From: Dicyema japonicum
Taxonomy: Eukaryota; Dicyemida; Rhombozoa; Dicyemidae
Reading direction: 5' to 3'
DNA length: 64,000 bases
Assembly (NCBI GenBank): GCA_011109175.1
Contig: RDEW01000024.1
Location: 391,005-455,004, forward strand
In this document: positions 10,771 to 41,929 of the stretch, piece after piece
How positions within the stretch are numbered: the stretch's first letter is position 1
Layout of the letters: every line of letters starts with the position of its first letter
Notes under the pieces: generated by a model
Told to the model about the DNA's origin: nothing
What the model saw: only the letters and a program-made list of their open reading frames with translations
The model's database searches: none
Made by a program: the position numbers and the translations under genes

Positions 10771-11861
10771 TTAGCATTTTAAAAATTTAATATATGAATA
10801 GCGAATATATTTCTTGGAATCGAATGTTTTATCGCGAATTTCTTTCAGATTCAAATCCTAAATATTATCCTTAAAATTTACGTCAAAAAAAGGATGATTC
10901 GGTACATCACTATCATTCGAATATCCAAGTCGATCCTTTTTACATTTAATGAGCAACTGAGATGTAATAACTTCAAACCTTTAATATTAAATCCTTGCAG
11001 TCTTCGTTCACAATCCCCGTTAAGTTCGGTTCAAGTCGTTGGATATCTTGTAAAACTTCATTCTTTGTATTCTTAAAGAAAGGAAGCTAAATTTGATAAA
11101 AAATATACTTTGTTGAAATACATGGTATATATGATTATACCAAGGCACCACCAATCCGTACTGTGGCAACATTCTTTATGGGTTATTTGTTCGGGGGAAA
11201 AAGTAGTACAATGATCCAATCAGTGAGGGACAATTTGTCTTGGGAGGAACATTCACTTCACTTAAACCGAAATCAGTGATCTTCACATAGCCATCTGACC
11301 CCAACAATAAATTTTCTAACTTAAGGTCCCTAAAGTACATGACTATAAATACCCGTGAATGATGTCGTTATTATGAAGAAACTCTACTCCAAGGCTACAC
11401 AAGCGGAGTAAAACTTTATTTGTCTTAAAGTAAAGGGTTTTTTCTTTAGTAATTTTACCAAATTCTCCAACTCAATGTATTCCAAAACATAACAAATATA
11501 AGACTAATATTATGCCCGAATAAACCTCATCATAATAATATGAATTTATGTGAACGAATAGGTGATGATTTACCTTTGTCACCAAATCGAAGACTTTCAG
11601 TTCGCTTATTATTCGATTACAGTCTCGTAGAGATGAGAGATTTTGGCGTTTTATAGCAAAATTTTCATGATTTTTGTTTTCGTATAAATCAACCTATTTA
11701 TCATTTAAACTAAACTACTGTTCCAAAACTCCCCTGCGCGATTTTTATCAGATTGAATTCCGTCACATCGGATCTAATTGTCACAATTGAATATACATTT
11801 TTACATCAAAATTTTGTAAACTCAACGTTATTTTTAATTCTTCAACATTTATGCTTGTCAT
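10771..11861 (-). pseudogene. AGC-family protein kinase paralogue 1 (micro-introns; two 1-nt indels)
   Basis: ATG at 11861, stop TAA at 10771-10773. GT-AG introns at 11774-11796 (23 nt), 11694-11718 (25), 11330-11352 (23) and three more of 22-24 nt towards the C terminus fit a catalytic domain plus AGC tail. Visible motifs: Gly loop AQGSFGT, beta-3 Lys in NFAIKRQ, catalytic loop HGDLKLENLLL (Arg of HRD lost, Asp kept), intact DFG in KITDFGLSE, PEQITHKE, then TDWWCLGIII and HPFFD. Against paralogue 2 there is a 1-nt deletion near 11392 and a 1-nt insertion in a C5T5 run near 11193-11202. Either this is a young pseudogene or these are base-calling errors; if the latter, the gene is intact and the only copy with a usable Lys and DFG. 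The text around YSACVALGVEFLH resembles PKN/PKC kinases. Confidence 0.8.
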
Positions 11862-15131: not shown

Positions 15132-15765
15132 AACTACTCATTTAAGCTAATCGTGGGGTATTTAACTGTGAGAATCTTAAGAAAGCAAAATGTGTTTGCC
15201 ACTTAGACAAGACTGTCGAGAACTTAAATAGGACTGACCAGGAAAGCGAACTAATAATTGACTCGAGACTTATGAGAACTATCAAAATCATGGATTCCCT
15301 AACTTCTAAATGAACATGCATAAAATAGTTCTAAACCCATTCCAATTAGATTTGTTAGTAAATCAAGGATTTGAAGTTAATGCGAATTGGCTGTTAATTT
15401 GGTCCTTTAAATTAGTGATCAGAATACCAGCTTCTTTTTACGATGTCGAAAATAAATCAATATTAAGATTAATATTACAAAAGTGACCCCGAAAATAGAA
15501 AAATTGACTATATTTTGGGTAGTATTCCATTCATATAACAATTGATCAGATATTGCTGTAAATGGAACAAAGGAATTTATGAAGAATATTGTGGAGAGAA
15601 ATGATGGAAATAACTAAAATGCAAAATTTAAAGACAAACGATAATTCTCATGAAATTAGGTTAATATGTCAACTTTTATTTAATTTTATTAATTACAATT
15701 TTTATTGGATAAAATTAAATATTATTTAAAATATATTTAATAATCGAACAATTAAAAAAATTTCA
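15132..15765. repeat. Direct repeat unit A enclosing membrane-protein gene A
   Basis: About 600 bp that recurs in the same orientation at about 17,290-17,860, with small indels. It includes the gene, its upstream region (TGAAATTAGGTTAATATGTC and the A/T block after it) and the 3' flank (a TGTTTGCCAC... block). It marks a local gene duplication. Confidence 0.85.
15363..15651 (-). CDS. Small type I membrane protein A (79 aa, two micro-introns)
   Basis: ATG at 15649-15651, stop TGA at 15363-15365. Two GT-AG introns, 15614-15639 (26 nt) and 15405-15427 (23 nt), must be removed to read it; the coding sum is 240 nt. Predicted order: signal peptide, residues 1-24 (starts MRIILFPSFLST, hydrophobic); short ectodomain, about 25-38, with an N-glycosylation sequon (NTT); one transmembrane helix, about 39-59 (IVNFSIFGVTFVIL...); stop-transfer RHRKKK; a 14-residue tail ending ALTSNP. 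I recognise no family. A sister gene lies 2.1 kb away with the same intron positions. Promoter-side DNA, signal peptide, introns and tail are nearly identical between copies, whereas ectodomain and helix differ. Function unknown; a surface receptor or ligand role is only inferred from the topology. Confidence 0.78.
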
Positions 15766-16665
15766 TGACAGATTGTCCTAACGAAAAACCAGGACAGAAA
15801 AAGACGATTGTATGCTCAATTGATATCCAGAAGGCTTTTGACTCTTTTTTGAGGAAGATTATAACTCACAAAATATATTCGTCGAACATTGACGAAAATC
15901 TGAAATTATGGTTGGGAAATTTCTTAAGTGATCGACGAGGAAGAGTACACTATGGCAATCGATGTTCCGTATTGAGACTATTTGCAAATGGCGTTCCTAA
16001 GGGATCCCCATTATCTCCCCTCTTGTTTAACCTTATGATGAATGAGTTGCCACTCCCACAGGGGGATGATGACATATATTAACGTATACAGATGATATAG
16101 TCATTTCTTCGAAGGATGTGAGTATTATCGAAGCAACGAGAAGAGTAAAGGACAATCTGAATAAACTAAGTTATGGCTTTGAGAAAATCAATTGACTGCT
16201 AGCCCGGAGAAGTCGGTGTTGACCCTATTCACGACAAACAGAAGACTAGAAAAAGTATCAATTGACTAGGGAAAGTCACATTGGATGGGAAAAATATCCC
16301 GCAAAACAAATACCAGAAAATCCTAGGAGTTACCTTTGACACCTTCTTAACCTTTACAAAACACGTCTAAAATATGTTATTGACTTGTACGAAGAAAATC
16401 AACTTCCTGAATGCGTTCTTGGGAAACCTAAGAGACAAAAAAGATCTGAATGGACTGGATGTCATATATAAACAGTTCATCGAGTCTAATATAGGATACG
16501 CATGTACTGTCTGGAGATCTAACCTTGCTGCAACGAATTTGGACAAGATCTGCAACATTCAAGTGAAGGCAGCAAACCTACTAAGGAAATCTTCCCGTGT
16601 GGAAATCCTACCCAGAAACCTTGAAAATATGATAGAGGCGACTGGAACAGTACCCGAGTATGCGG
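15765..16665 (+). mobile_element. LINE-J RT fragment
   Basis: Plus-strand RT frames: TIVCSIDIQKAFDSF (first catalytic Asp block), NGVPKGSPLSPLLFNLMMNE, then TDDIVISSKD near 16,090 in place of YADD. The thumb region follows (QKILGVTFDTFLTF, CTKKINFLNAFLGNLRD, ESNIGYACTVWRSNLAATNL). Close kin lie on the minus strand at 39.9-41.2 kb and 57.0-57.6 kb. In-frame stops near 16,080 and 16,265 show it is dead. It separates the two membrane-protein genes. Confidence 0.8.
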
Positions 16666-17140
16666 ACCTCGCCCATATCGGTCCCTTGCTCTTTCCTGGT
16701 TTATGCAGAAGAATCAAAATTCCATCACCAAGTTTCAAGGGGGAATGCGTCTCAAATACCTCATTGAAAATCTTTGTAATGAAGGTTGTCAGTTTGCCTG
16801 GTGCATACTTGATCATTTCTCCATGTATGTTGTCTGGTCCCCCTGCCCAGATGTTGTTTAATTTAATGTTTCCTCTGTAGAGATCGGTAGATTCAAGCTT
16901 CTTGGTGATGGCTCTACATGTGAGGTTTCATTTTCATTCAAAATTCCTGAAATGTTCGGCAATAATCTCAGTTTTTTTTTATTATCCAATACATTTTTTC
17001 CTTGACTGTCGTGAATACAAATATTCGTAGGTTGAACTCCCCTCTGCAAAAGGCGAACTGCTCGAAACATTTGTGTTCCGTATCCCAACTTCTCAAGTTG
17101 GCAGTTACCTCAACTAAATAAAGAAATTTTATTATTATTT
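16665..17140 (-). mobile_element. LINE-R fragment, minus strand
   Basis: The minus strand reads a linker (MFRAVRLLQRGVQPTNICIH, then DSQGKNVLDNKKKL), then AGGPDNIHGEMIKYAPGKL and FNEVFETHSPLKLGDGILIL. These are the 'KSAGPDNI..ELLKYG' and 'NDVFE....LG.GLLIP' blocks of the nearly intact LINE-R at 33.1-33.3 kb. It abuts the plus-strand LINE-J piece head to head. Confidence 0.75.
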
Positions 17141-17289
17141 TTACAAGAAAATTCGCTTTAGTGAATATTTCTTGAACAGTAGATCGTTCAACGGATAAGT
17201 TTAGACTGAGAAGCTAAAAAGTTGGTTCTTGACTCAGGCATACTCCACCATTGCTTATGTAATCAAGCTAATTTTTCATTCGAGAGATA

Positions 17290-17860
17290 AAATAGTCATT
17301 TACGCTTAATCATGGGCTATTTAACTGTAACGAATGTAATAAAAACAAAACGTGTTTGCCACGTAGACAAGACTGTTGAGAATTTAAATAGCAAGGATTC
17401 AAGTGAACATAAAAAATTAAAATCTAAACCCTTTCCCATTAGATTTGTTAGTAAATCAATGATTCGAAGTTAATGCGAATTGGTTGTTAATTTGGACCTA
17501 AAATTAGTGATCAAAATACCAGCTTTTTTCTACGATGTCGAAGGTATATAAAAAATCCGATTAATATTACACCAGCGACAGTGAAATAAGAAATGATGCC
17601 AATAACTTTGCTAGTGTATTCCATATGAATCTCATATTGATCATTCATTGTTGTAAGTGGAGCAAAGCAATTTATGAAGAATATTGTGGAGAGAAATGAT
17701 GGAAATAACTAAAATGCTAAATTGAAAGACAAACGATAATTCTCATGAAATTAGGTTAATATGTCAACTTTTATTTAATTTTATTAATTACAATTTTTAT
17801 TGGATAAAATAAAGTATTATTAAAATATATTTAATAATCGAACAAATAAAAAAAATTTCC
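17290..17860. repeat. Direct repeat unit B enclosing membrane-protein gene B
   Basis: Second copy of the unit at 15,132-15,765, same orientation. The upstream block (from TGAAATTAGG, 17745 onward) and the 3' flank are close to identical to unit A over long stretches; the differences concentrate in the middle of the coding region. Confidence 0.85.
17456..17746 (-). CDS. Small type I membrane protein B (80 aa, two micro-introns)
   Basis: ATG at 17744-17746, stop TGA at 17456-17458, introns 17709-17734 (26 nt) and 17498-17519 (22 nt), coding sum 243 nt. The signal peptide starts MRIILFPSFLST, as in copy A, then comes a 14-residue ectodomain (MNDQYEIHMEYTSK) unlike that of A and without its NTT sequon. 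The helix (VIGIISYFTVAGVILIGFF) also differs. RHRRKK and a tail ending FALTSNH follow, almost as in A. Intron positions and phases match A. Conserved splice sites and open frames in both copies argue for real genes rather than chance. Family unknown. Confidence 0.78.
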
Positions 17861-17879
17861 GAACAATTAATACGAGGAC

Positions 17880-20720: not shown

Positions 20721-20890
20721 TATTTTGTCATTAATAAATAATTTAGATTTAAAAAAATTAATCAATATAAAAAATTAAATTTAACAAATTAATTAGTAAT
20801 TAATTTAGTAATTGTAACAATTAAAATCATAAACCGCAGTACATCGATCGTAGTAGTTTGAATGAAAATTTTTTCCCCTAAAATTACAAA

Positions 20891-21972
20891 CTATAAGAAT
20901 ACTTGAAAATATTCATCGGGGTTAAACTTTTTGTCACGAATTGTCTGAAAATTAAAACTCTGAATATTATTTTATGAATTGTACTTTAAAAAATGGATGT
21001 TTAAGTACATCATCATCTTTTAAGGATCCTAGTCTATCGTGAGGGGATTTAATTAATAACTGAGATTCAACAAATTCAAAACCTTTGATATTAAATTCCT
21101 ACATTTCACATTAGTCATCATAGGGAAGTGAGGATTGTGATGTAGAATATCCCAGTAAAGTTCGCGAGTATTCGTTTTAAAATAAGGAAGCTAAAATTAG
21201 TAAAGTAAACTATACTTTTCCAAAGTACATGTAATAAATTATTATACCAAGGGACCACCAATCCGCACTATAGGAAATTTTATTGTATCTCAGTATTTCG
21301 GGAGAAAAATAGTGAGGTGATCCATAGTTTGAATGACAAAATGATTTACGACTGTCGTTCATTTTACTCAAATGAAAATTAGTTATTTTCACATAACCGT
21401 CAGTCCCCAACATTAGATTCTGTAACTTAAGATCGCTAAAATTTATAAAAGTAAAAACCTATGGATGATCTTGTTAGCATGCAAGAACTCTACTCCAAGA
21501 GCTACACAGGCTGAGTAAAACTTTATTTGTCTATAAGAGAAGCGTTGCTTTTGCATTAAACGTTCTAAATCACCCATCTGCATGTACTTCATTGGAAGGA
21601 AGAGATTAGACTAACAATTAATAGAATCCCAACATTATCAAAATAATATGACTTTAGGTGGACAAAAAATATATTATTTGTTCTTGTGACTAAATCAAAT
21701 ACTTTCACTTCATTTATTATTCTTTGCAAGTCGACTGAAGCCGTAAGACTATGAAGTCTCACTGCGCATTTGTTTTGGTTTTTATCTTTGCACAAATCAA
21801 CCTATTTATTAATATAACGTGACTTTTCCAAATGATCCATTTCCAATTTCTTTTACTATTGTGTAATCAGTTGGGATGGATCTATTAGAATATATTATAT
21901 TGTATACCTCTCAATTTGCAAATTCTGTTCGTCCAATGAATTTTGTAATTTTTCAATAATACTATTCTCCAT
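20891..21972 (-). CDS. AGC-family predicted pseudokinase, paralogue 2 (seven micro-introns)
   Basis: ATG at 21970-21972, stop TAG at 20891-20893. GT-AG introns at 21882-21907 (26), 21802-21823 (22), 21587-21615 (29), 21436-21458 (23), 21191-21215 (25), 21060-21082 (23) and 20960-20984 (25) give one open frame of about 302 residues. Layout: short helical N terminus (ENSIIEKLQNSLDEQ); Gly loop GNGSFGK; beta-3 CAVRLH with Arg for the ATP-binding Lys; catalytic loop HSDLKLQN (Arg lost, Asp kept); metal site NFH instead of DFG; SPEILRYNK; DWWSLGIIIYYM; HPFFK; and an AGC tail (TIRDKKFNPDEYF). Three altered motifs with no frame damage suggest a retained, catalytically impaired kinase. The closest feel is PKN/PKC/PKB. 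The 29-nt intron may instead be 23 nt with a non-AG end, adding two residues. Confidence 0.85.
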
Positions 21973-22440
21973 AATTCGAAAATATTTGCTTTTTCGTATT
22001 TATAGTCAAGGCATTAATTTTTATTACTAATTATTTGTTTAGTCACATAAATTTTCTACGTATTTCATTTCATACCTGAATTTTATTTTTCTTATAAGCT
22101 AAATTTTATAAAATATTTTACATTATTACTTTTAGTTTCCATTAATGTTGCAACGTCTTGTGTGTTCTGGTAACGAAATAATAAAATAATAAACTATGAA
22201 CACATTACTAATATAAAATTTAATTTCAAGTTCGTGTTGAATTTTACAAATAACGCTAAAAAGTTAGTTTTTGATGTATTTAATAATACTTTACTGAATT
22301 TATGCAATTTTTTGTAATCTCTGGTCATTTCCAATTAAAACTTTTTAATTTAAGAATCTTCTCATCATTAATTATATTGGCAAAAAAGTTCCCATCTCCT
22401 ATCGGATTCCTCTGCAGGAATGAGAAGGCTACTGTAGTAA
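21973..22440. other. AT-rich upstream region of the pseudokinase
   Basis: Very A/T-rich sequence with no recognisable gene on either strand. It would contain the promoter of the minus-strand kinase, but I see no defined element. Confidence 0.4.
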
Positions 22441-32810: not shown

Positions 32811-34531
32811 GTGGAAAATCAAAAAGATGAACAGAAAACATTCACGGGAAATTATTACATCCCTATTAAAAGATGTGGAATGCTAAAAGACAATTCAAAG
32901 ATGTATGCGGCTTTGTTGCGGACAAAGAAAGGACAAAACATCCTTCACATCAAAGACAAAGATGGAAAATTCGTGGGTAACCCGAAAGAAAAAGCAGAAT
33001 TGATTGCACGACACTTCGAAACACTGTTGAATAAAGAAAATAATGACTTTCCCCCTTTCCAAGGAAAAGCAAAGGCGCTAAAAATCCCAATCACAGTGGA
33101 AGAGGTGGAATTAGCGATAAATAAACTGAAGAACAACAAGAGTGCTGGGCCGGACAACATAAGCCCTGAGCTCCTAAAATATGGGCCAAAAAAACTTAGC
33201 GACACAATTGCAAAAACCCTAAATGACGTCTTTGAAACTAATACCGATCTAGGACTTGGAAATGGATTATTAATACCCATACAAAAACCGAACAAATCAA
33301 AAGGACCAGTAGAAAATCTCCGCCCGATAATACTTCTGAATTCGATACGCAAGGTGCTGGCAAACATTGCACTAAGCCGGATAAAGGGTGTGGCGATCTA
33401 TACCTACCAGCAAGTCAAAGTGGGTTCCGAGAAGGGAGGTCTACGGCAGACATTGTATGGAGCCACAGATGGCGCTGCGCAACGCACCAAAGATTCAAGA
33501 GCGCAACAACCGTGTTGGGAATAGATCTCTCCAGAGCTTTCGACTCAATAAACAGACAGAAACTGATGAATGTGCTTGAGCAAATATTGGATGAATCGTC
33601 GGTTAGGATAATCAGACTACTACTTGCGAACACAAGACTATCTGTGAGGACAGAAGGAGCAACTTCCCGCAGTTTCAAAACAACGATTGGGACACCCCAG
33701 GGTGATTCCCTCTCCCCTTTACTATTCACCATATACCTTGAATCTGCACTCCGCGACCTCCGTAAATGCTATATAGGAGACATAGAAGAGACATCTTATG
33801 CGGATGATGTGGATTTTGTATCACGGGATGTGACCGCACTCCAACACCTGCTAGAAAATGCACCTGCGGAGCTTGAGAAATGGTTTCTCAGCGTAAATGT
33901 TAACAAAACTGAAATTACGGAAATCAAAAGAGAAGACGATATTACTCAAAAGATGGAGACGTACTAATAAGCTCGGCTCTCTACTAGGAGACGCTGAAGA
34001 TGTACTAGGAGGAAAACACTGGCAAATGCGGCAATGGCTAAACTGAAGAAAGGATGGCTAAGGGCCAAAGGACTTGGAATTGACATCAGATGCAGGCTTT
34101 ACAACGCGTTTGTGAAACCGATCCTACTGTATAACGCTGGGACATGGGGAAGTTCCTTCAACGAACTATTGAAACTGGATTCGTTCCATAGAAGGCAACT
34201 AAGAAGCTTACTCGGAATGGAGTGGCCACGTAGAATATCAACCACTGGTATCTACAACAAGTGTATGTGTTCTTACATCAGCAAGGATGTGATAGATGCC
34301 CGGTGGAGGCTATTTGGGCATGTACTAAGAATGAACCCGGACGCACCCGCTAACAAAGCGATGGAAGATTACTTTGACAGATGCGAAAAACCCTTCCGCG
34401 GACGACCTAGATCGACACTTCCGACAGCCCTAAACAAAGACTTAAATCGTGTGAGAAAAAATTTAAAGACGGGAGACGACCTGGACGAATTGAGATCACT
34501 CGCATTCGACAGAGGAAATGGAAAAGACTAA
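32811..34531 (+). pseudogene. LINE-R reverse transcriptase (two small frame breaks)
   Basis: Order on the plus strand: linker (AELIARHFETLLNKENND), fingers (NNKSAGPDNISPELLKYGPK; LLIPIQKPNKSKGPVENLRP), palm A (LGIDLSRAFDSINR at 33,520), palm B (GTPQGDSLSPLLFTIYLESA at about 33,690) and palm C (SYADDVDFVS at 33,797, with both catalytic Asp). A thumb and C-terminal domain (YNAGTWGSSFNELL; RWRLFGHVLRMNPDAPANKA; GRPRSTLPTALNKDLNRV) follows. Frame breaks occur near 33,430-33,520 and 33,965-34,030. It copies its RNA at the nick, and probably also served the SINE that shares its tail. Confidence 0.88.
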
Positions 34532-39919: not shown

Positions 39920-41240
39920 TATTCAGGTGATCCCGGCATCTCTCAATAATCGGGCCATTTTTTCTCGATGCTCCAACCGTGATCCCACACATTTTCTATA
40001 CGGACGGGGGTCTTTTTCCTCTCCTCTTCTGAAATTGCCTCCAGTTGCCTCTATGATAGACTCGAGTGCTCTGGGGGCAATTTCTTTATCTGTATATTTT
40101 TCCAGTAATTTTATTGCTCTTGGCTGGATCTCTTGAATTTTTGTTAGGTTCGTTGCCGACAGGTTAGATCCCCATGCAGCACATGCATAGCCTATTGTTG
40201 GCTCGACATACTGCTTGTAGAGGGTCCCGATACCTGGCGGATAAATTCCTCCACAGTTCCAAAGGAAGGCTTTTACAAAATTGATCTTCTTTGCACAGGT
40301 TGATATGATGGATTCCACATGGGCTGAGAAGCAGAGGAAAGTATCAAAAGTTACTCCCAGTATCTTCTGCGATTTCTTTTGTGGTATAGGTACTCCATTT
40401 AACGTGACATCAATTGTTTGCGTTCCCATCTTTCTATTCTTAGTAAATAGAGTGACTGCTGACTTTTCGGAACATGCATTTAATCGATTCTCGCACAACC
40501 ATCCATATATGTTATTTAGTATTCCTTGTAGTCTTTCTTTAGCATGTTCGACATTTACGTCCCTAGATGCGACAACTATGTCATCGGCATAGGAAAGTAG
40601 CATGTCATTATTATTCATAGGTACGGGGAGATCACTCAAAAACAAATTAAAAAGGATTGGTGACAGAGGAGATCCTTGGGGTACACCATTGGGTAATAAT
40701 CCCGATCTGGAACTCTTGTTTCCGACACTTTCCCTCGGCGTCCACTTACGAAATTTGTAATTATAACTTTAATGGTGCATCAATTTTTGTCAAAAATATT
40801 TTTTGTATTAGGATCTTCCGTGTGACAGAGAGGAAAGCTTTTTGAATGTCGATCGTGCATATGACCGATTTTTCCTGTTTTGGCTTGATCTTGTGTCTTT
40901 CAGTTATGAACTTTATTAATGTTGTTAGAAAGGAGGTTGTTGATAATCCTTCCTTGAAGCCATGTAGGAATGTAGGTTGTGGGAGAAAAGGGTGAATAAC
41001 TTTAAGGACCAGTTTCTCCAGAATCCTCGACAAAACATATATAAGGTAAACTGGTCTGTAAGAGCCGGGATCGTTCTTTGGTCTTCGCAGCTTCAATATT
41101 GGTCGAATTTTTGATAGTTTCCACAAAGTCGGTATGGTATTTCTGTTCAGCGATGTGTTGTAGATGTTTGTTAATGCATTTATTGATGCTGGGCCCAAGT
41201 GTTTCAGCAGAATAAGAGGAATTCCGTCTGGACCACAATA
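39920..41240 (-). mobile_element. LINE-J reverse transcriptase remnant, minus strand
   Basis: Minus-strand order: a fingers part at 40,761-41,198 (LWKLSKIRPILKLRRPKNDP, SYRPVYL, LHGFKEGLSTTSFLT, VICTIDIQKAF). Then, after a frame break, YADDIVVASRD near 40,585, QKILGVTFDTFLCFSAHVES, TLYKQYVEPTIGYACAAWGS and a C-terminal stretch ending at 39,923. Both Asp of YADD are present. The missing piece between palm A and C spans a frame break near 40,700. One of the longest LINE-J copies here. Confidence 0.85.
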
Positions 41241-41929
41241 GTTTGTTTTTTTCTGATTTGATATTGCTTTGGATACATCTTTAGGAGAAAATAAGTCAGC
41301 GGGGCCATTTTGGATGGCTTTCTCTTTATTTTCGATTGTGTGTTAATCTTTTTATAAGGAATGTGACTGATTCGAATACAATGTTTCATAAATTTATTCA
41401 GATTAAGCTTGCATTGTTCTTTGTTATCTTCGAATTCTGGATTTTTCAGACGCCTCAACATCTTCCACATGTTGAAAATTAAGGTCTGATAATTTATGGC
41501 AACAGAGATTCGCAAGAGTTTCTTCCTTTAGGTGTTGTTTGTGCTTTTCGTGATGAGAATGTTTAGTGACCTGATTCGATTAATGACCTCTCGTGAGCGA
41601 TGTGTCATTCTCTTAAGGTTGTTTCTTTCCATAATTATTTTCTTGTTTTTGAGTTGTATTTCAATTTTTCGTTTTTTATATATGCTTTTCTGATAAAATT
41701 TTTTCTCCCGTCAATGAATTAAAAAAATAAATAAAATAATTGTCTTTAATTAAAAAATAAATTAAATAATTGAAAAAGATTAGTAAAAATAAAATTTATG
41801 TTTTTAATAATTGGCCAATTTAAGGGTTGGCCAACTAGAGGGACTTCACTGTATTTATTATTAAGTAAAATTAATAATAAAATTTTTACTTGATACGTGT
41901 TAATTAAACTTGTTGGTTGGTGAGTATAT

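Follow-up and report, generated by a model that had tools for sequence, protein, structure and literature searches.

A multicopy family of small predicted membrane proteins with a fast-changing middle in the genome of Dicyema japonicum

Two direct-repeat units encode small predicted membrane proteins

Dicyemids are tiny animal parasites of octopuses. Within a 64,000-nucleotide stretch of the Dicyema japonicum assembly (hereafter the window, to whose first letter all positions refer unless a contig is named), a direct-repeat scan and alignment delineated two repeat units about 2.1 kb apart, unit A at 15172..15768 and unit B at 17332..17864, with approximate ends. The genes of both lie on the minus strand, as do all the parts listed here, and the promoter side of A is at the high coordinate. 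Unit A carries a conserved upstream module (15652..15765), recognized in alignments of nine copies, which begins near a AATTGTTCGATT block after a T-run. The coding part of exon 1 (15640..15651) reads MRII and is followed by a first intron of 26 nt (GTTTGT...TTTTAG, 15614..15639), both placed from the reading frame. Exon 2 (15428..15613), assigned by frame and hydropathy, encodes the remainder of the predicted signal peptide, an ectodomain of about 15 residues, a transmembrane (TM) helix with a hydropathy of 2.84 in the coding frame, and the basic stretch RHRKKKL. The second intron, 23 nt with the sequence GTATTCTGATCACTAATTTAAAG (15405..15427), emerged from a pattern search and from the rate map; it precedes the exon 3 coding tail, DQINSQFALTSNP plus stop (15363..15404, reading frame), and directly after the stop stands a conserved 3′ element of 30 nt (15333..15362), defined by pattern search of the assembly.

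Unit B follows the same layout. Alignments placed its conserved upstream module at 17747..17860, and the reading frame placed the exon 1 coding part (17735..17746), a 26-nt intron 1 (17709..17734), a 22-nt intron 2 ending in ACTAATTTTAG (17498..17519) and the exon 3 coding tail, VQINNQFALTSNH plus stop (17456..17497); exon 2 (17520..17708) was supported by hydropathy as well, and the 30-nt 3′ element (17426..17455) was again found by pattern search of the assembly. With the predicted introns removed, the products would comprise 79 residues for A and 80 for B. In our reading of the sequence, the A protein runs in the order MRIILFPSFLSTIFFINSFVPFTA, ISDQLLYEWNTTQNI, TM helix, RHRKKKL and DQINSQFALTSNP. 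The preliminary description of this DNA had proposed two direct-repeat units at these coordinates, each with two introns of 22–26 nt and a protein of 79 or 80 residues, and every part of that layout was confirmed.

Other features accompany the repeats. A fragment matching RVT_1 (E=4e-12) lies between units A and B at 15768–16079 (+), and more RVT_1 open reading frames occur at 33242–33967 (+), 39923–40768 (−) and 40761–41342 (−). A protein-kinase gene is present at 20756–22080 (−) and 10803–11701, with a Pkinase match of E=4e-20 for one piece; searching the assembly with its DNA gave at least 12 matches, on contigs C109, C133, C16, C117, C148 and C94.

The family comprises at least nine loci

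The preliminary description predicted further members, and seven additional copies beyond A and B (L011 to L017) were located in the assembly searched, which spans 64.67 Mb in 191 contigs and in which all match counts are lower bounds. Five assembly searches agreed on the identical nine loci, and the family thus has at least nine: six lie within 210 kb of a single contig (C109, at 406, 408, 510, 525, 565 and 615 kb), and the others are on C16, C88 and C77. Queries with gene DNA returned these nine, and L017, the most divergent copy, gave 16 matches as a query, at nine loci. A signal-exon pattern matched nine times against once for its control, and the pattern of the 30-nt 3′ element, with up to three mismatches, matched nine times, always at family copies, against none for its controls. 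The intron-2 pattern at the same tolerance gave 22 matches, nine of them the family, versus 24 for the reversed control. A protein query retrieved just three copies; introns and divergence defeat a search at the protein level.

Two candidates were set aside. A pair of intron-2-like matches on C109 (708808 and 719469) shares only about 20–24 nt with the family, while the two resemble each other beyond that stretch, and the pair was taken as an unrelated repeat. We also rejected the view of the C16 copy as a mere other allele of the 510-kb locus; homology between them runs out at either end after about 5 kb.

Over exons 1 and 2, five of the nine copies are intact (A, B, L012, L014 and L015) and the other four are broken or atypical. 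The frame is interrupted in L011 and L013; L016 contains one in-frame stop and lacks a strong TM window (hydropathy 0.49). In L017, on C77, the usual start is changed and an ATG sits just before intron 1; its middle is long and different, with several possible introns, and ends in a TM segment with basic residues, followed by the common intron 2 and the 3′ element. The TM exon of L017 also contains a 118-nt tandem duplication (99%) around a single N (L017:977–1213), which is probably an assembly join.

Searches for relatives elsewhere gave no assignable match. Querying a large protein database with A yielded three candidates, none at E≤1; Pfam gave no match above its curated cut-off for A, B, L012, L014 or a piece of L017 (with values up to E of 1 inspected), and Rfam gave nothing at its gathering threshold. 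Among the papers listed in a search of mostly open-access literature, none described a dicyemid family of variable membrane proteins. So far the family has been found in this genome only. Ten well-characterised multicopy gene clusters are mentioned in the description of the Dicyema genome (PMC6736024).

Intact copies maintain a coding frame across tiny predicted introns

In the five intact copies the coding frame is free of stops and has a basic end. The best 19-residue hydropathy window in that frame scores 2.39–2.84, against at most 1.92 in the other two frames, and only the open frame combines a hydrophobic start with a TM window. In simulations with 50 random substitutions, the frame stayed open in 18–24% of trials per copy. 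In the intact copies exon 2 measures 186, 189, 189, 204 and 204 nt; that of L016 has 234 nt. Every one of these lengths is divisible by three, whereas intron 1 varies from 22 to 28 nt across copies without such a rule. Moreover, the basic character of the end of exon 2 is kept in eight copies, all except L017.

These regularities bear on the possibility that the units are a decaying or non-coding repeat, that is, duplicated DNA in which the regulatory parts are conserved and the middle has lost its coding role or never had one. Such a repeat would be in keeping with the four broken or atypical copies among nine, with the dN/dS of about 1 seen in the closest pairs (see below) and with the reverse-transcriptase fragment between A and B, which indicates a repeat-rich region. 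Yet in five copies the frame is still open, with its TM window and basic anchor in place, even though the aligned variable parts have come to differ at as many as about half of their sites, and the multiple-of-three rule holds for exon 2 and not for intron 1. Some of the frame breaks, moreover, may be sequencing errors: paired-box (Pax) genes are present in the assembly, and in one of them, on C101 (L086), we read a frame slip at a G-run within the conserved domain, which suggests single-base indel errors in the assembly. We consider a non-coding repeat quite unlikely.

From the reading frames, we infer that introns 1 and 2 would both be spliced out. Left in place, intron 1 would stop the frame after 7 codons in A and 9 in B. 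The family introns appear similar to other introns predicted in this assembly: reading frames place introns of 23 and 25 nt in the kinase gene of the window and one of 25 nt, ending in AATTTAAAG, in a Pax gene, and on C122 a 26-nt gap separates two Pax matches between the halves of the domain. Published Dicyema introns measure 26.2 ± 1.9 nt (n=16; PMC2222250), and a median of 27 nt is also given (PMC6543705). The Dicyema genome is put at 67.5 Mb with 36.7% GC (PMC6736024); the window has a GC content of about 35% overall, ranging from 0.28 to 0.43 in 2-kb steps. In size, GC content, Pax genes and short predicted introns, the assembly agrees with a dicyemid genome.

Intron 2 invites another interpretation, in which this stretch is never spliced out, translation would stop after ...VF shortly after entering it, and its 23 nt together with the 30-nt element would form a 3′ UTR signal. 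Reading through does yield V-F-stop in eight copies, all except L017, and the exon 3 tails are conserved neither in length nor in frame among copies. However, the 23 nt end in AATTTAAAG as in Pax and in CTAATTTTAG as in the kinase, the form in B is shortened and still ends in AG, and in L017 the same 23 nt seem, from translation, to stand in another phase. We regard the UTR interpretation as unlikely; intron 2 is likely a true intron, judged by its sequence.

The middle of the unit evolves fastest

Comparison of A with B revealed a variable middle between better-kept flanks, as previously noted. Identity was 69% in the ectodomain part (42 nt) and 67% in the TM part (60 nt), against 87–94% in six other segments: 88% in the upstream 140 nt, 94% in exon 1 plus the first 60 nt of exon 2, 92% in intron 1, 87% in intron 2, 88% in the last 24 nt of exon 2 and 90% in the 3′ 120 nt. 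The flanks of A and B are thus conserved, although calling them almost identical, as the preliminary description did, was a little strong.

To extend this comparison to the family, we estimated HKY tree lengths for eight copies on two fixed topologies, leaving out L017, whose middle does not align. The rate along the unit is uneven, as the earlier account required, with tree lengths from 0.24 to 2.08. Intron 2 is the slowest-evolving segment of the family (0.24), followed by intron 1 (0.35–0.42), exon 1 (0.50–0.61), the signal peptide (0.63–0.65), the 3′ 120 nt (0.69–0.75) and the upstream region (1.0–1.07); the ectodomain and TM part together reach 2.07–2.08. The slow introns need no special cause, because 22–28 nt would be mostly splice signal. 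The last 24 nt of exon 2, at 1.76–1.91, change family-wide at the DNA level nearly as fast as the variable part (1.76 vs 2.08), and the frozen cytoplasmic tail described for A and B does not extend to the family.

Synonymous divergence and uneven apparent age

The preliminary description offered diversifying selection on the extracellular part, or gene conversion of the flanks, as the source of this pattern. Under the first, the ectodomain of a surface or recognition family would be under positive selection, its flanks would be constrained and gene conversion would be minor or absent. In its favour stands dN/dS beyond residue 22, which was calculated for the five intact copies of the nine (L013 and L016 entered DNA comparisons and frame scans only) and lay between 1.04 and 2.87 in all ten, non-independent, pairs. 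Furthermore, non-synonymous divergence exceeds that of neighbouring DNA by a wide margin: in A/B with p=6e-8 (Fisher), in L014/L015 with p=7e-9 against a far-upstream stretch and p=5e-8 and 1e-4 against two downstream stretches, and in the 5′ piece of L011/L012 with p=1e-8 against its 3′ flank.

Synonymous sites, however, are raised as well, which is not expected from selection at the protein level alone. In the middle of A/B, 11/29 synonymous sites differ versus 32/261 sites in neighbouring DNA (Fisher, p=0.001). For L014/L015 the count is 6/35, compared with 46/1130 far upstream (p=0.004), where the stretch overlaps the kinase gene and may be constrained itself, 37/838 far downstream (p=0.006) and 24/361 just downstream (p=0.04). 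The 5′ piece of L011/L012 (pS 0.28, pN 0.20) has 5/19; the corresponding counts are 5/397 for the 3′ flank (p=2.5e-5) and 11/129 for the upstream DNA (p=0.035). Synonymous sites are few in these tests, at 19–35 per comparison. Against its near flanks L014/L015 showed no significant excess, either synonymous (p=0.62) or non-synonymous (p=0.18). The high ratios, of 1.3–2.9, belong to the eight more diverged pairs; in the two closest intact pairs, A/B and L014/L015, dN/dS was 1.0–1.2, and these pairs pooled gave pS 0.26 and pN 0.29 in the variable part (p=0.87). With dN about equal to dS there, we consider diversifying selection on the extracellular part a less likely explanation.

Within some copies, the gene core and its surroundings differ in apparent age. 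L011 and L012 show a step inside exon 2: the TM part is 92% identical, and then the tail, intron 2 and 120 nt are at 100%, with 475/480 positions identical from +180 to +659. Three duplicated blocks of 4–5 kb (L061 to L063) provide a second case: L061 has 38 sites specific to it within the initial 300 nt of the gene, versus 20 in 1450 nt far upstream. Another 16 fall in the 150 nt that precede the gene, and with them this stretch is raised in the L014/L015 pair, so the flanks are not always frozen. Gene conversion or mosaic recombination is indicated where a core seems older than the DNA around it. We rejected the reading that L062 and L063 were homogenised in the gene, where they are roughly as similar as in their flanks; the anomaly is that of L061. 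In these blocks, judging by orientation, a kinase copy stands head to head with the membrane-protein gene.

Trees of the separate segments (the middle-segment tree without L017, which does not align there) showed no significant conflict between 5′ and 3′ segments (AU p 0.38 and 0.052). The two trees are compatible, and exchange between subfamilies is therefore not supported. The earlier suggestion of gene conversion thus finds backing in the L011/L012 step and the L061 core anomaly, but not in the segment trees.

Discussion

Weak constraint on the ectodomain, combined with gene conversion or mosaic recombination, fits these data better than diversifying selection, and we favour this explanation with modest confidence. 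The nine short genes would encode small type I, or possibly hairpin, membrane proteins. Each unit would bring its own upstream region, a first coding exon of four codons, a tiny intron and a large exon 2 carrying signal peptide, ectodomain, TM segment and basic anchor, after which come another tiny intron, the short tail and the 30-nt 3′ element. The units would have multiplied through DNA duplication, because introns and the upstream region are retained. Constraint would act on delivery and topology, namely on the signal peptide, presumably cleaved, the TM helix, the basic inner anchor, the splice signals and the flanking elements. Little constraint would act on the outward part, which has about 15 residues in A and is longer in other copies; it would drift nearly neutrally or somewhat faster, while recombination or gene conversion among copies, the presumed mechanism, may make some flanks appear younger than the middle.

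Several known systems offer comparisons. The rif/stevor-type families of Plasmodium are far larger and their genes longer; like them, the present one is a multigene family of variable, here predicted, surface proteins in a parasite, and as in antigenic-variation families it combines multiple copies, a variable outward part and a better-conserved rest. Exclusive or switching expression and immune pressure would be further marks of such a family. A Rifin profile matched residues 34–65 of A at E=0.058, below the curated cut-off, and A was not classed as a Rifin. Schistosome micro-exon genes (MEGs) encode short, secreted products with a signal peptide; they have many tiny symmetrical exons, vary by splicing, and are defined by having most of the coding region in many micro-exons of multiples of 3 nt. 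They have been proposed as the origin of protein variants in a parasitic flatworm (PMC3534613). The genes described here, by contrast, have two or three coding exons, and a single exon of 186–234 nt holds the variable part (intact copies and L016). Ruminant CEACAM1 paralogues are reported to undergo concerted evolution with escaping members (PMC7042247), and resemble the present family in that similarity among paralogues depends on gene conversion while some members diverge. That paper claims natural selection in its title, which is the less likely account for the family here. CEACAM1 belongs to the vertebrate CEA-family genes, and the likeness considered here is one of pattern.

A more specific proposal is a recognition or host-facing family in which the delivery parts (upstream region, signal peptide, splice signals and 3′ element) form a fixed cassette and the ectodomain is diversified by selection and by conversion among the nine copies; whether intron 2 is kept or removed could decide between a VF inner tail and a longer one. 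We think this quite unlikely. A parasite surface location would nevertheless suit a dicyemid, a host-facing or recognition role is possible, and the most natural guess would be a role at the surface, towards the urine or renal tissue of the host or towards other dicyemids. With introns of 22–28 nt, small genes of this kind are easily missed. If the proteins are expressed at the surface, they would give access to the encounter of a minimal animal parasite with its octopus host, or to the way it identifies its own kind.
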